DNA from: Streptomyces capillispiralis | GTDB lineage: Bacteria; Actinomycetota; Actinomycetes; Streptomycetales; Streptomycetaceae | DNA: 64,000 nt | Direction of reading: 5' to 3' | Assembly: GCF_007829875.1 (NCBI RefSeq) | Contig: NZ_VIWV01000001.1 | Location: 8,010,001-8,074,000 of the forward strand | Part shown: positions 2,586-54,382 of the stretch, piece by piece | Layout of the letters: each line of letters opens with the position of its first letter | How positions within the stretch are numbered: the stretch's first letter is position 1 | Program-made: the position numbers and the translations under genes | Notes under the pieces: generated by a model | What the model saw: the letters and a program-made list of their open reading frames with translations, nothing else | What the model was told of the DNA's origin: nothing | Databases searched by the model: none

Positions 2586-4070
2586 GTGCCCTCAAGACGC
2601 CTCCCGCGCCCGCGCGGCCACCTCGGCCTGCTCGCGGCCGCCCTCCTCGCGCTCGTCCTGGGCCTCCTGCCGACGGCGACCGCCCCGGCCGCCGCGGCCG
2701 CGCCCGGAACCACCGGGCCGGCGGCCGCCGTCGCGGCGGCCGGCACCTTCCGCAACCCGCTCAACACCGGCCCCGACCCGTACATGACGCACTGGAAGGG
2801 GAACTACTACCTCACCACCACCCAGGGCAACAGCATCCGCATGTGGCGCTCCCCGTCCCTGGGCACCCTGCTGACGTCCGACCCGGTCACCGTGTGGACG
2901 GACACCGACCCGACCCGCAACCGCAACATCTGGGCCCCGGAGTTCTACCGCTTCGGCGACCGCTGGTACCTCTACTACACGGCCGACGACGGCGTCGACG
3001 AGCACCACCGCCTCTACGTCCTGGAGTCGGAGCGCGACGACCCGGCCGGCCCCTACCACTTCAAGTCCAGGCTGGCCCCGCCCAACCACGCCGACGACTT
3101 CGCCATCGACGCGGGCGTCCTCCAGCTCGGCGGGCGCCTCTACCTCGCCTACAGCGGCATCAACCAGTACCAGCACAACGGGCTCAACATCGCCCCGATG
3201 TCCGATCCGTACACCGTCTCGGGCAACGCCGTCGCGATCGACGCGGCCGGTGGCTGTCCCGAGGTGAGGGAGGGACCGGAGTTCCTGTACCGCAACGGGC
3301 GCGTCTGGATGACGTACTCCGCCTGCGACACGGGCAAGCCGGACTACCAGGTCTGGATGATGTCGATGCCGCTGACCGCCGACCCGCTCGTGCCGGGGAA
3401 CTGGCAGCAGCACCAGGGCGCGGTGTTCTCCCGGGCGGACGACCGGGGCGTGTTCGGACCGGGGCACCACGCCTTCTTCCGCTCCCCGGACGGCACCGAG
3501 GACTGGATCGTGTACCACGCCAAGACCACGTCGGTGAACACCTACAGCAACCGCACGACCCGGGCGCAGAAGTTCACCTGGCGGGCCGACGGGAGCCCCG
3601 ACTTCGGCCGCCCCCTGGCGATGGGAGCCACCCAGGACCTCCCCTCCGGCGACCCGGGATCCGGCACCTACTGGATCAACGACGACGGCCGCTCCAGCGG
3701 CCCCGGCGGTGTCACCTACGGCGGCGCCTGGAACTCGGGCACGGGCTGCGCCACCCAGTGCTTCTGGAGCGACGACCACTGGAGCGACCGGACCGGCGCC
3801 ACGGCCACGTTCACCTTCACCGGCACCCGCATCGTCCTGCTCTCCGTCAAGGACACCGGCAACGGCTACGCGGCCGTGAGCGTCGACGGCGGGCCCGAAC
3901 AGCGGGTGGACTTCCACGGCCCGATCCGCGTCGGAGAAGCGGTGCAGTACACCAGCCCACGCCTGCCGTACGGCAGTCACACCCTCCGCGTCCGGGTGAC
4001 GGGGGAGCGCAACTCCCAGGCCCAGGCGTCCTTCGTGAGCGTCGACCGCGCCGAGGTCTACGTCAACTGA
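2586..4070 (+). CDS. Secreted GH43-family glycosidase (arabinofuranosidase-like) with C-terminal accessory domain
   Basis: The GTG at 2586 is chosen over an in-frame ATG at 2541 because GGAAAGGA sits 9 nt upstream and the product then opens with a clean Sec signal (basic RRLPRPR, then a long Leu/Ala core ending in A-rich APAAAAA). The catalytic domain (about residues 55-350) is a five-bladed GH43 propeller: NTGPDPY supplies the base Asp64, FAIDAG the modulating Asp near 175, and REGPEF the acid Glu near 229-232. Residues about 355-494 (YWINDDGRSSGPGG to AEVYVN) form a beta-sandwich accessory domain, perhaps carbohydrate-binding. Expected role: releasing arabinose or a related pentose from plant polysaccharide outside the cell. 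The exact substrate is not visible. Confidence 0.85.
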   Translation: MPSRRLPRPRGHLGLLAAALLALVLGLLPTATAPAAAAAPGTTGPAAAVAAAGTFRNPLNTGPDPYMTHWKGNYYLTTTQGNSIRMWRSPSLGTLLTSDPVTVWTDTDPTRNRNIWAPEFYRFGDRWYLYYTADDGVDEHHRLYVLESERDDPAGPYHFKSRLAPPNHADDFAIDAGVLQLGGRLYLAYSGINQYQHNGLNIAPMSDPYTVSGNAVAIDAAGGCPEVREGPEFLYRNGRVWMTYSACDTGKPDYQVWMMSMPLTADPLVPGNWQQHQGAVFSRADDRGVFGPGHHAFFRSPDGTEDWIVYHAKTTSVNTYSNRTTRAQKFTWRADGSPDFGRPLAMGATQDLPSGDPGSGTYWINDDGRSSGPGGVTYGGAWNSGTGCATQCFWSDDHWSDRTGATATFTFTGTRIVLLSVKDTGNGYAAVSVDGGPEQRVDFHGPIRVGEAVQYTSPRLPYGSHTLRVRVTGERNSQAQASFVSVDRAEVYVN

Positions 4071-50393: not shown

Positions 50394-51735
50394 CTACGCG
50401 GACGGACTGTCCGTGGCCGGGGACGGATCCGCTTCCGTCGTGGGCGCCGGGGCATGCCCGGTGGAGAGGTGTGCCTTTCGCCATGGCAGAAGGAGCGCGC
50501 TTGCCATGCACAGTACGCCGGCCATGAGCAGGGCACCGCGTACCCCCACTGCGGCGCCGATGAGACCACCGGCGACCAAGAAGACGGCCTGGCATGTCTT
50601 CGCACCGACGGACCACGAGGTGCCGACGCGAGACATGAAAGCGTCCGGTGTGGCCGCCATGCGATACGTGGTGAACGACGGGTTGAAGACCCCCGGCGGA
50701 GAAGAGCAGGCCGAAGTCGGCGGCCACGACGACGGTCACGCCGAGGGCACCGGAGGGTGCCAGCGGCAGGAGGACCGTCCACAGGGTGCGTGCCACACCG
50801 GACAGCAGCAGAATGCGACGCTGCCCGAATCGGCGGGTGAGCAGCGGGGTCAGGCGTGAGCCCAGCACGCCGCCGAGGCACGGCAGTCCCAGAGCGAGTC
50901 CGTACTGCCACGGTGCCAGGCCGAGTTCGTCCAGCATCAGGACGGCTATCAGCGGGGAGGCCATCATGACGGATCCGCCGAAGAGCAGAGCGTTGAGGAA
51001 CAACGGCCGCAGCCCTGGATGCCGCAGGAGGTACTGCCAGCCGGCCGCGATGTCCCGGCCCGGACGAGAGGTGGCGGCTCGTGCCGGTGGCGCGGGTTCA
51101 GGCTGCCGGATGCGACGGATGCCCAGTGCCGATCCGAAAAAGGACAGCGCGTCGACCACCATGGTGGCGGCCGCGCCCAGTGCCCCGATCAGAAGCCCAC
51201 CGACGAGCGGGCCGGCGCTGACACAGATCCAGTTGGTCGTCTCGAACAGGCTGTTGGCGCGAAGACGCTGCTCGGGCGGGACCAGTGCCTTCAGATGCGC
51301 CCCGCTCGCCGCATCGAACGCGACAGAGGCCGCTGTCTGGAGAACGCCGACGACACACAGTTGGTTGAAGGTCAGCCGGTCGAATGCCATGGCGACGGGA
51401 ATGCTCACCAGCGTCACGCAGCGAGCCAGATCGGCGGTGATCATGACCGGCCGCTTGTACTGGTGCTCGATACGCACACCGAGCGGCAGAGCGATCACCG
51501 CACTGGCCATCGCAGACAACGCGGCGAGTACAGAGACCTGCAACGCAGAGGAATCCAGCACCAGGAGGGCGATCAGCGGCAACGCCCCCATGCCGACGGC
51601 ACTGCCCGCTGCGCTGACCGCGTAGGCGGCCCACAACCACCGGAAGTCCTGCCCGAGCGTGCTCCGCCCTACCAACCGAACCTCCCGAGCAGCGAAGGCG
51701 CTCAGCGTAGTGACTCGAACCAACCACCGCCCCAT
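50394..51735 (-). pseudogene. MFS transporter gene with a single-base frameshift
   Basis: The first part (ATG 51735) encodes an MFS exporter: DFRWLWAAYAVSAAGSAVGMGALPLIALLVLD, LPLGVRIEHQYKRPVMITADLARC, ANSLFETTNWICVSAGPLVGGLLIGALGA, and about nine helices to FGLLFSAG. At 50690-50694 a run of five C (G on the coding strand) changes frame; removing one base restores VFNPSFTTYRMAATPDAFMSRVGTSWSVGAKTCQAVFLVAGGLIGAAVGVRGALLMAG to the stop at 50394. Either a real inactivating mutation or a sequencing slip in a homopolymer. The intact protein would have about 446 residues. Confidence 0.75.
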
Positions 51736-51783
51736 GATCAGGCCACCACCGGGCGCACCTCGAAGCTGAGATCGAAAACAGGT

Positions 51784-52650
51784 ACTGAACAGGTCGTCCT
51801 CGGCTTCCACCGCGCGGGCTGGCTCTGTGTGGCGCGAGGCCCGGCGCCGCTGGAGCACCAGGCGGCCCACACGCCGCACCTGCGAGAGGTGGGGGTCAGC
51901 AGCCGGCTGCTGGACCGCTCGGCCGTGCGCGCCCTCGAACCCGCCCTCGGACCCGCCCCGGGGCCCGGCGTCCATGGCGGAGTGCACTACGTCCATGACC
52001 AGTCGATCGACCCCGACCTGGTCAGCCGCACGGCGTGAGGCGGCACGTCCGCACGGTTCCTCGATGCCCGCGTCGTCGAGGTCGTCCGCGACGGCCGGCA
52101 CGTCCGTGCCCTGCGCACGGCGAGCGGCGAGGAGGTCACCGCGTCCGCCTTCGTCGTCGCCGCCGGGGCCGAGAGCAGGGCCGTCGGGCGGCTGTTCGGT
52201 GCCCGCCTGGACGTCGAGCCCGGCTGGGGGTTCAGCGTGGTGCCGTCCAGCGCCGACCCGGTCTGCGACCACCCCTTGATGTCGATCGAGGACCACGTCG
52301 TCGTCAACCCCGTCCCGGGCGCCGTGCGGCAGACCGGAGGCATGGCGTTCGGCGGCGGCACCTTCCGAGTCCCGGACCAGCACGAGGCACGGAAGCCGCG
52401 GGACGCGGCGAACCGGCTGCTCCACGGCCTGGTCAAGATCACGGAAGCGGGCACCGTACGGCGCAGCGCACGTCCGATGACCGCCTCGGGGCTGCCGATC
52501 GCCCGTCCCCTCGGCCCCGACAGGGTCGCCCTCACCGGCCACGGCACCCTGAGGATGACCCTGGCGCCGAGAGCGCCCAGGTCGCCGCCGGGCTTGTCGA
52601 CGACATGAGCGGGCGACGTAGCCCTGTGCGCACCCGCTGGTCCGTTCGCC
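51784..52650 (+). pseudogene. Relic of a DadA-like FAD-dependent oxidoreductase
   Basis: The reading FHRAGWLCVARGPAPLEHQAAHTPHLREVGVSSRLLDRSAVRALEPAL, then FLDARVVEVVRDGRHVRALRTASGEEVTASAFVVAAGAESRAVGRLFGARLDVEPGWGFSVV and MTASGLPIARPLGPDRVALTGHGTLRMTLAP is a D-amino-acid dehydrogenase/DAO-type flavoprotein. The FAD-binding N-terminus is gone, a TGA interrupts at 52036-52038, and after LAP (about 52566) the ending ESAQVAAGLVDDMSG continues one frame over. Three lesions make it non-functional. Confidence 0.75.
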
Positions 52651-52949: not shown

Positions 52950-54089
52950 TCATGGTGCCGGGGCCAGGCGCCAGAGGGAGGTTGTTTCCGCACGTCGTGC
53001 GGTGTGGAGTGGGTCGGCGGCGTCCTTGGCGCGTGGGTGACGGGGCTTGGTATCGATCTTGTCCACGACGCGGAGCCGTGCTGCCCGGACGGCGTCGAGC
53101 AGTTGCCGACGTGTCCGGAGTCCGAGGTGTTCTGCCAGGTCGGACAGGATGAGCCAGCCTTCCCCGCCCGGCCGGAGATGGGCGGACAGCCCCGCGAGGA
53201 AGCCGTGGAGCATGGTGCCGTCCGGGTCGTAGACGCCTTGTTCGACGGGGCCGGTCGGGCGGGCGGGGAGCCAGGGCGGGTTGCATACGACGAGGTCGGC
53301 GCGGCCTTGGGGGAACAGGCCGGGCCCCGACACCTCGATGCGGTCGGTCAGCGCGAGCCGGCGGACGTTTTCCGTGGCGCAGGTCAGGGCGCGGGGACTG
53401 ATGTCGGTGGCCACGACGTGCTGGATACCGCGGTGTGCCAGGACCGCGGCGAGGACACCGGTTCCCGTGCCGAGGTCGAATGCCGTACTGGTGGCGAGGC
53501 TGTGCCGGGTCGCCGGTGGCAGTGGCGCGTGGGCGACCAGGTCAACGTACTCGTCCCTGATGGGTGCGAACACGCCGTAGTGGGGATGGATACGAGTCCC
53601 GAGCGCCGGCACGACGAGTCCTTTCAGGCGCCATTGGTGAGCGCCGATCACTCCCAGCAGCTCGCGTAGGGAGACGGCGGTGCGCCCCTGTGGGGGGCCG
53701 TACGCCTCCAGGCATGCCTGTCGGACGTCGGGGGCCCGGCGCAACGTCAGTGTGTAGTCGTCGTCCAGCAGCACCAGGAGCTTTCCGAGGACACGGGCAC
53801 GGTGGCTGCTGCGGCGTCGGTGCAGGTGGAAGCTCTCGCTGGGAGACGTACCGGGCCTGGGGGGCTTGCGGTCGAGGCGACGGCCCATCGCCCGCATCAA
53901 TTGCCGGGCGTTGTGGAAATCGCCGCGCCAGAGCAGGGCCGTGCCTTCGCACGCCTGTCGGTAGGCGTCGTCGGCTCTCGTACGGTCGTCGGCGACGACG
54001 GTTAGCCGGGGCACAGGGGCGGCGTTCTCGGAATGCCAGCGGGCGGACTGGGGGGTGCTGTTCTCGGTCCAGTGGATGGTGGACACCAC
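52950..54089 (-). CDS. SAM-dependent methyltransferase of the NPPY class, behind an attenuator-like leader
   Basis: 379 residues. The C-terminal half is a class I methyltransferase: STAFDLGTGTGVLAAVLAHRGIQHVVATDIS (motif I and acidic ribose binder) and DLVVCNPPWLPA with Asn270-Pro-Pro-Trp, the N-P-P-[YW] motif of enzymes that methylate amino groups in nucleic acids or glutamine (RsmC/RlmG, HemK, Dam relatives). The N-terminal half is helical (YRQACEGTALLWRGDFHNARQLMRAMGRRL) and may bind the substrate. GTG 54089 or the next GTG follows GAGGAG; that ribosome site pairs within a hairpin. The leader structure suggests an antibiotic-inducible, perhaps rRNA-modifying, resistance enzyme; substrate unproved. 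Confidence 0.8.
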   Translation of the reverse strand: MVSTIHWTENSTPQSARWHSENAAPVPRLTVVADDRTRADDAYRQACEGTALLWRGDFHNARQLMRAMGRRLDRKPPRPGTSPSESFHLHRRRSSHRARVLGKLLVLLDDDYTLTLRRAPDVRQACLEAYGPPQGRTAVSLRELLGVIGAHQWRLKGLVVPALGTRIHPHYGVFAPIRDEYVDLVAHAPLPPATRHSLATSTAFDLGTGTGVLAAVLAHRGIQHVVATDISPRALTCATENVRRLALTDRIEVSGPGLFPQGRADLVVCNPPWLPARPTGPVEQGVYDPDGTMLHGFLAGLSAHLRPGGEGWLILSDLAEHLGLRTRRQLLDAVRAARLRVVDKIDTKPRHPRAKDAADPLHTARRAETTSLWRLAPAP

Positions 54090-54092
54090 GTA

Positions 54093-54141
54093 CTCCTCGT
54101 GGTCGAGCGTGCGGGGGCACGAAGAGCACTTCGACGAGGAG
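54093..54141 (-). promoter_or_regulatory. Hairpin masking the methyltransferase ribosome site
   Basis: CTCCTCG (54093-54099) pairs with CGAGGAG (54135-54141), and an inner TCGA pairs with TCGA after a 3-nt bulge. On the mRNA the GAGGAG ribosome site of the gene at 54089 is the 3' arm, so in this fold translation would be closed. Confidence 0.6.
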
Positions 54142-54153
54142 CAGACCGAACCG

Positions 54154-54176
54154 ACGCCTGTCCGTCGGACAGGCGT
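54154..54176 (-). promoter_or_regulatory. Leader hairpin 2
   Basis: Perfect 10-bp stem (54154-54163 with 54167-54176) and 3-nt loop, between the upstream ORF and the ribosome-site hairpin. It is stable enough to act as a pause or terminator, but no U-run follows. Confidence 0.65.
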
Positions 54177-54197
54177 GTGCGTTGAAGCAGGTGGCCG

Positions 54198-54254
54198 TTA
54201 CCGCTCTCGCGTCGAAGCGCGAGAGCGGACGTCCCAGACGACCATGCCGAGCAT
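54198..54254 (-). CDS. 18-residue leader peptide upstream of the methyltransferase
   Basis: ATG 54254 is preceded by GAAAGGGA (54269-54262, 7-nt spacing). The peptide is MLGMVVWDVRSRASTRER, ending at TAA. Its last codons make up hairpin 1. R-S-R and R-E-R fit the basic-x-basic pattern known to stall ribosomes with macrolides or ketolides in Erm leader peptides. The layout (short ORF, hairpin inside the ORF, hairpin over the downstream ribosome site) is that of translational attenuators of erm genes. That it responds to an antibiotic is inference. Confidence 0.55.
   Translation of the reverse strand: MLGMVVWDVRSRASTRER
54201..54228 (-). promoter_or_regulatory. Leader hairpin 1, inside the leader ORF
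   Basis: Perfect 10-bp stem (54201-54210 with 54219-54228), 8-nt loop, formed by codons 9-18 of the leader peptide. A ribosome stalled in the ORF would open it. Confidence 0.65.
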
Positions 54255-54382
54255 CAGGTGATCCCTTTCGGAGGAGTGGCAGAAGGTTCGCACAGGTGTT
54301 GTTCTGCCGCCAAGAACACACCCCGAGGCCGGATTTCGCAGAGGGATGCGGTGATCGCGGATCTACGGGTGACGAGCCGGTA

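Follow-up and report, generated by a model that had tools for sequence, protein, structure and literature searches.

A conserved leader peptide and a probable ErmC-type translational attenuator upstream of a non-Erm NPPW methyltransferase in Streptomyces capillispiralis and other actinomycetes

Translational attenuators of the ErmC type (ermCL and others) are built from a leader open reading frame (ORF) with its own ribosome-binding site, followed by RNA segments that may pair as 1:2, 2:3 or 3:4, the last arm hiding the ribosome-binding site of a methyltransferase gene. The same organization is found in Streptomyces capillispiralis, in a stretch of 64,000 nucleotides comprising positions 8,010,001-8,074,000 of contig 1 of the genome (8.43 Mb, three contigs): this whole stretch is called the window here, all coordinates are positions within it, and the leader, the RNA switch and the methyltransferase gene lie on its minus strand. 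As in the ErmC-type systems, the predicted stall falls at about codon 7-9; in contrast to them, the leader peptide, with its MTLGMVLGD core, is unrelated, the gene does not encode an Erm, an extra hairpin separates segments 2 and 3, and a compact variant exists with another RNA pairing. The system is probably an ErmC-type translational attenuator, through which a methyltransferase directed at the ribosome would be induced as a defence against a stalling drug. The logic of the switch is known, while the sensor peptide and the kind of gene behind it appear to be new; among the papers listed by a literature search with the leader peptide strings, none was relevant.

Drug-responsive switches based on upstream ORFs (uORFs) have also been described in the same genus, namely those of LmrC, TiaA, Are5sc and WblC (PMC8546547, PMC12421871). 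Unlike the present leader, they act mainly by transcription attenuation, have other and often very short uORFs, and precede ABC-F or regulator genes. By eye, no U run comes after any hairpin in the leader of the window, and transcription attenuation was discarded.

The leader ORF of 18 codons, MLGMVVWDVRSRASTRER, extends from an ATG at 54254 to a stop at 54198 and is preceded by the ribosome-binding site AAAGGGA (54262-54268), conserved as GAAAGGG in alignment A1. An initial annotation had proposed that a methyltransferase other than an Erm stands here behind an erm-like translational attenuator, and both the proposal and its components (leader ORF, ribosome site, hairpins 1 to 3 and a buried GAGGAG) have been borne out: the uORF is conserved, the RNA forms mutually exclusive helices and the enzyme lacks the RrnaAD domain. 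Conservation of the reading frame and the stems, on which that proposal had been made to depend, extends to many actinomycete genera. The same uORF appears in one register and at about the same distance (approximately 165 nt before the start) in most of approximately 110 homologous loci, a recurrence which is more than chance. Upstream of homologous methyltransferases, 77 distinct leaders were collected, of which 76 were aligned for the comparison of peptides and codons and 71 were used for a consensus fold; they stand before NPPW methyltransferases in Streptomyces, Kitasatospora, Nocardia, Micromonospora, Streptosporangium and Nonomuraea.

The consensus of the peptide is M-T-L-G-M-V-L-G-D-x-S-S-R-A-S-T-R-E-R (common form MTLGMVLGDxSSRASTRER), with a G-M-V-[LV]-[GW]-D core, and the leader of the window, with the core MLGMVVWD, is the version of one clade. 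None of the 76 aligned leaders departs from the G, M and D of the core, whereas synonymous changes occur in the codons for G, V, L and D. The Arg-Ala-Ser-Thr part differs in that its codons, too, hardly vary (CGC GCT TCG ACG). Thus, the 5' half of the uORF has been kept as peptide and its 3' half as RNA.

Three hairpins can be recognised in the RNA. Hairpin 1, within the 3' end of the leader ORF, pairs 54228-54218 with 54211-54201 over 11 bp; its 5' arm is segment 1 (54218-54228), while its loop and 3' arm form segment 2 (54201-54220, GCGCUUCGACGCGAGAGCGG). Hairpin 2 (54154-54176) acts as a spacer, common but not universal: a stem of at least 7 bp is present in 75% of the leaders against 16% of the shuffles, five leaders are too short to contain it, and it is dispensable. 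Hairpin 3 (54141-54093) buries the GAGGAG (54098-54093) of the methyltransferase: segment 3 (54126-54141, CUCCUCGUCGAAGUGC) is the anti-ribosome-site arm, and segment 4 (54093-54100, ACGAGGAG) carries the ribosome site and forms with it a helix of 8 bp, in which 96.7% of the cells are paired. The fold exceeds those of dinucleotide shuffles in stability (z -2.3 over 211 nt and -3.25 over 149 nt), and a scan of the region against Rfam gave no match up to E 1.

The alternative 2:3 helix, overlooked in the first reading, joins 54220-54204 with 54141-54126: GCGCUUCGACG, in the loop and 3' arm of hairpin 1, pairs with CGUCGAAGUGC, the arm masking the ribosome site, and this helix was recovered without constraint in the consensus fold. 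In it 95.3% of the cells are paired and four pairs show two-sided change, either value being reached by none of 500 shuffles; these counts are taken as support rather than proof, since related sequences can beat all shuffles by kinship alone, without any structure. A further two-sided change is seen at the G441 locus, where CGACG:CGTCG has become CGATG:CATCG (C-G to U-A). The OFF helices 1:2 and 3:4 have 92.1% of their cells paired. The pairings 1:2/3:4 and 2:3 are mutually exclusive, segment 4 containing the ribosome site, in accordance with the ErmC-type logic. Moreover, a second anti-ribosome-site arm (GUGCUCUUCGUG, 54118-54129), conserved in alignment A1, is able to pair with CACGAGGAGUAC in the minimum-energy fold obtained with the P site on Asp.

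The position at which a halted ribosome would open the switch was predicted by removing from the fold, for each P-site codon, the RNA covered by the ribosome, and computing the openness of GAGGAG. In the 76 leaders the site is closed in silico when no ribosome is present (mean accessibility 0.07), reaches 0.38 when the P site is one codon, and 0.36 when it is two codons, upstream of the invariant Asp, and is at or below 0.05 from Asp onward; in the leader of the window the values are 0.44 two codons and 0.69 one codon before Asp, and then 0. When the RNA behind the Asp codon was shuffled, a contrast above 0.3 was found in 0.3% of the dinucleotide shuffles, versus 59% of 22 real leaders, and changing the footprint edge from 13 to 18 shifted the result for the window by only one to two codons. 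The site is thus predicted to open only for a ribosome whose P site lies immediately upstream of the invariant Asp codon, which in the window would place the Trp codon 54236-54234 in the P site and the Asp codon 54233-54231 in the A site.

Some leaders have retained the peptide on a different RNA. In this compact variant (L073, L077, L080, at about 2888-3009, and L152), MTLGMVLGD is kept in the absence of the four-segment RNA, the leader ORF extends past the beginning of the methyltransferase gene, and the CCGAGGAG site and start codon of that gene are paired with the V-L-G codons and the start of the leader; L073, L077 and L080 group in the tree as a single, fully supported branch. The simple mask model gives no clear stall-dependent opening for this variant. 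The preservation of the peptide while the RNA has been replaced points to MTLGMVLGD as the sensor. Were this so, the compact variant would represent one sensor peptide rewired to another RNA switch, a rare natural experiment in attenuator evolution. Two truncated leaders are also known: that of L108 (about 1284-1366) reads MTLGMVVG-stop, its stop codon standing where the invariant Asp is expected, and that of L071 (about 2753-2835) ends MTLGMVLP-stop. Finally, a Brachybacterium locus (L059, 2879-2960) has a partly similar RNA part and a different peptide, MASIATYGEGLGSSSSRAAPQD, and is perhaps a sensor for another drug.

The gene behind the switch (52950-54086) encodes a class I S-adenosylmethionine (SAM)-dependent methyltransferase of 379 residues, with an MTS-domain catalytic half and the motif NPPW; of two possible starts, the GTG at 54086 is more likely than 54089. 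Profiles of MTS and PrmC-like type match the catalytic half, the top Pfam match being MTS (3e-11), and the Erm/KsgA domain RrnaAD is absent among the matches up to E 1; the enzyme is not an Erm, and its catalytic domain is PrmC/RsmC-like. Nevertheless, the protein scores well below the cut-offs of the equivalog models of PrmC (55 against 199) and RsmC (19 against 295). Both NPPW and the SAM-binding D-x-GTGTG are invariant in the 36 members of the family alignment A3, and the SAM site therefore looks intact; NPPW fits methylation of an amino group in RNA or protein.

The AlphaFold model of the enzyme is confident (predicted local distance difference test score, pLDDT, 91.9), and its only long fold matches are small-subunit assembly factors of the trypanosome mitoribosome: chain FE (Z 25.0-25.6, 333 residues), which we take to be mt-SAF14 (name from PMC11785013), and chain F4 (Z 21). 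These are the sole long matches reaching the N-terminal half, full-length in the case of chain FE, but the likeness is one of fold only: they are eukaryotic organelle factors with 16-19% identity, missed by sequence search even with a profile, and a profile search of the PDB with the N-terminal half gave only catalytic-domain matches. The catalytic half alone lies near PrmC, N6AMT1, TrmM, RlmG and RsmC. With the PrmC/HemK protein glutamine N5-methyltransferases it shares the catalytic domain, which aligns with that of E. coli PrmC at Z 20.9 along 192 residues, and an N-P-P-aromatic motif, although this reads NPPW instead of NPPY and the N-terminal half is different. With the guanine N2 rRNA methyltransferases RsmC, RlmG and SasO it shares an MTS catalytic domain placed after a non-catalytic N-terminal half, although the structural alignments run mainly over the catalytic half; to our knowledge, no leader ORF precedes the genes of that group. 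Many of these fold relatives modify ribosomal components, release factors or RNA.

The association between leader and enzyme is exclusive. A covariance model of the leader was scanned against 393 Streptomyces and 396 Actinomycetota genomes with strict filters, which weak leaders may escape, and the methyltransferase was searched for in the same 393 genomes. The enzyme is present in 102 of these (about a quarter) and rare elsewhere in the phylum, its homologues of 61-88% identity occurring in 80 kept loci of 417, with close relatives almost all from Streptomyces. Leader copies were found in 43 of the 393 genomes, adjoining the enzyme or a decayed remnant, with one strong copy in the genome of the window; the two matches with no recognised enzyme (G340 and G007) proved on inspection to precede decayed enzyme genes. 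Among the 396 Actinomycetota genomes, the sole true match besides that of the window was G441, again upstream of the enzyme, while three others (L154-L156) were rejected as chance matches within long open frames with no leader. No leader was found before other genes in either set: every credible match belongs to this methyltransferase or its remnant.

Furthermore, the gene is plasmid-borne in several strains, with an IS5 transposase alongside in one, and in its tree Streptomyces sequences are interspersed with those of Micromonospora, Nonomuraea, Streptosporangium and Nocardia. No neighbour is common to more than a few loci, no conserved neighbour that could point to a drug was found, and there were no phage copies. 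Such a distribution, sporadic, sometimes plasmid-borne, without conserved neighbours and mixed across genera, is what would be expected of an accessory protection gene.

The following mode of action may be proposed. In the absence of drug, the ribosome would translate the leader or leave it free, with 1:2 and 3:4 paired and GAGGAG hidden. A drug-bound ribosome, sensed through the core MTLGMVLGD (MLGMVVWD in the window), would halt once its P site stood immediately upstream of the invariant Asp codon and would cover segment 1; segment 2 would then pair with segment 3, freeing segment 4 with its ribosome site and allowing the methyltransferase to be made. The response would depend on the Asp codon and on CUUCGACG. 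The enzyme would most likely methylate an amino group of rRNA or of a ribosome-associated protein, lowering the binding of the stalling drug. Sequence and computation show the conservation, the exclusive association, the helices that exclude each other and a switch precise to the codon, while stalling, drug class, ribosomal substrate and resistance are what we infer. The RsmC orthologue SasO, a known resistance enzyme, protects the saskemycin producer (PMC12637814), which provides a precedent for an MTS-type methyltransferase in such a role. Tentatively, the locus may represent a hitherto undescribed, horizontally spread inducible resistance system, in which MTLGMVLGD, a new sensor peptide, would respond to an antibiotic by stopping ribosomes that have Asp in their A site, and the enzyme would belong to a new family of ribosome-modifying methyltransferases with an architecture like that of a mitoribosome assembly factor.

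Several observations weigh against the proposal of drug-induced protection. The switch is the product of in silico folding, and some leaders (L022, L025 and L063) do not show it. Covariation in helices 1:2 and 3:4 does not exceed that of shuffles, both being nearly invariant. The likeness in fold gives neither substrate nor function. Moreover, leaderless homologues, those of Proteobacteria among them, cluster near the root of the tree, and the enzyme is therefore not tied to drug induction everywhere. This last point, together with the closeness of the full-length predicted fold to mt-SAF14 (chain FE, Z 25 over 333 residues), would suit a real attenuator that senses general translation stress or one scarce aminoacyl-tRNA in front of a translation-repair or ribosome-assembly methyltransferase; this is unlikely, given a sporadic, mobile distribution unlike that of a housekeeping repair gene and a core that lacks the repeats of a single amino acid seen in amino-acid attenuators.

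As regards the inducer, the initial annotation had read R-S-R and R-E-R as the basic-x-basic pattern of macrolide and ketolide stalling. Both motifs are present in the leader of the window and R-E-R is common in relatives, but the Arg codons come too late, lying within hairpin-forming segments whose codons are fixed at the nucleotide level for pairing: a ribosome placed on them leaves GAGGAG closed in the mask folding, which speaks against a stall there. In addition, R-S-R is largely confined to the clade of the window and the compact variants lack the Arg part, so that this reading is very improbable. A narrower form of the preferred proposal, with the same attenuator and streptogramin B or another exit-tunnel drug as inducer, deserves a modest probability: the core MVVW-D of the window and the L108 leader, interrupted exactly at the Asp position, would agree with it, but in most leaders the P-site residue is Gly, which is not hydrophobic, and the etamycin rules are broad. 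It is quite unlikely that the uORF is the orthosomycin-sensing ORF of Mangano et al. and the enzyme an orthosomycin-resistance methyltransferase. In various bacteria, that ORF reportedly lies before a gene for orthosomycin resistance, drug-dependent stalling being said to be set by the incoming aminoacyl-tRNA, and an invariant A-site Asp would fit this; AviRa, however, is only a trivial Pfam match to the methyltransferase (E 0.19). Bottromycin stalls ribosomes at Gly in the A site, and erythromycin sites include XDK (PMC13410324). Bottromycin is disfavoured as inducer, since 28 of the 76 leaders have Trp instead of Gly at that position.

If drug-induced protection is indeed the function, the enzyme would add to the environmental resistome a determinant outside Erm, Cfr and ABC-F. 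The conserved leader would also constitute a ready-made biosensor, with which the inducer could be found by screening, making the target of the enzyme testable.

Upstream of the uORF, a conserved promoter-like element, TTGGCG/TTTGCC ... TGTGCGAnnCT, covers 54284-54313. The -35-like TTGGCG (54308-54313) is seen upstream of uORFs in relatives, reading TTTGCC in many of them, and the probable -10 region TGTGCGAnnCT (54284-54294) is matched by a TGTGCGA-type element approximately 40 nt upstream of the uORF in 59 of 77 leaders. By eye, the -35-like site of the window departs from the GAAAWY-plus-3-bp promoter rule of WblC (PMC7157823), and control by WblC is not claimed.

Behind the methyltransferase, at about 50900-51800 on the minus strand, an over-long ORF call contains a sequence resembling a major facilitator superfamily transporter, perhaps decayed. 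In a Streptomyces anthocyanicus plasmid (L161, 8505-8678), a stand-alone paralogue of rpmF (ribosomal protein L32) lies approximately 370 bp behind the methyltransferase. Near the enzyme in Nocardia loci and one metagenome-assembled genome (L046, L050, L051, L054, L065 and L074) there is one group of ORFs, resembling nonribosomal peptide synthetases in the example read, for which a self-resistance setting is possible. Finally, two matches in the plasmid collection, from Neisseria gonorrhoeae records (H10 and H11), show an unannotated relative in two pieces, with about 53% over residues 157-378, which suggests a broken or diverged copy in Neisseria.
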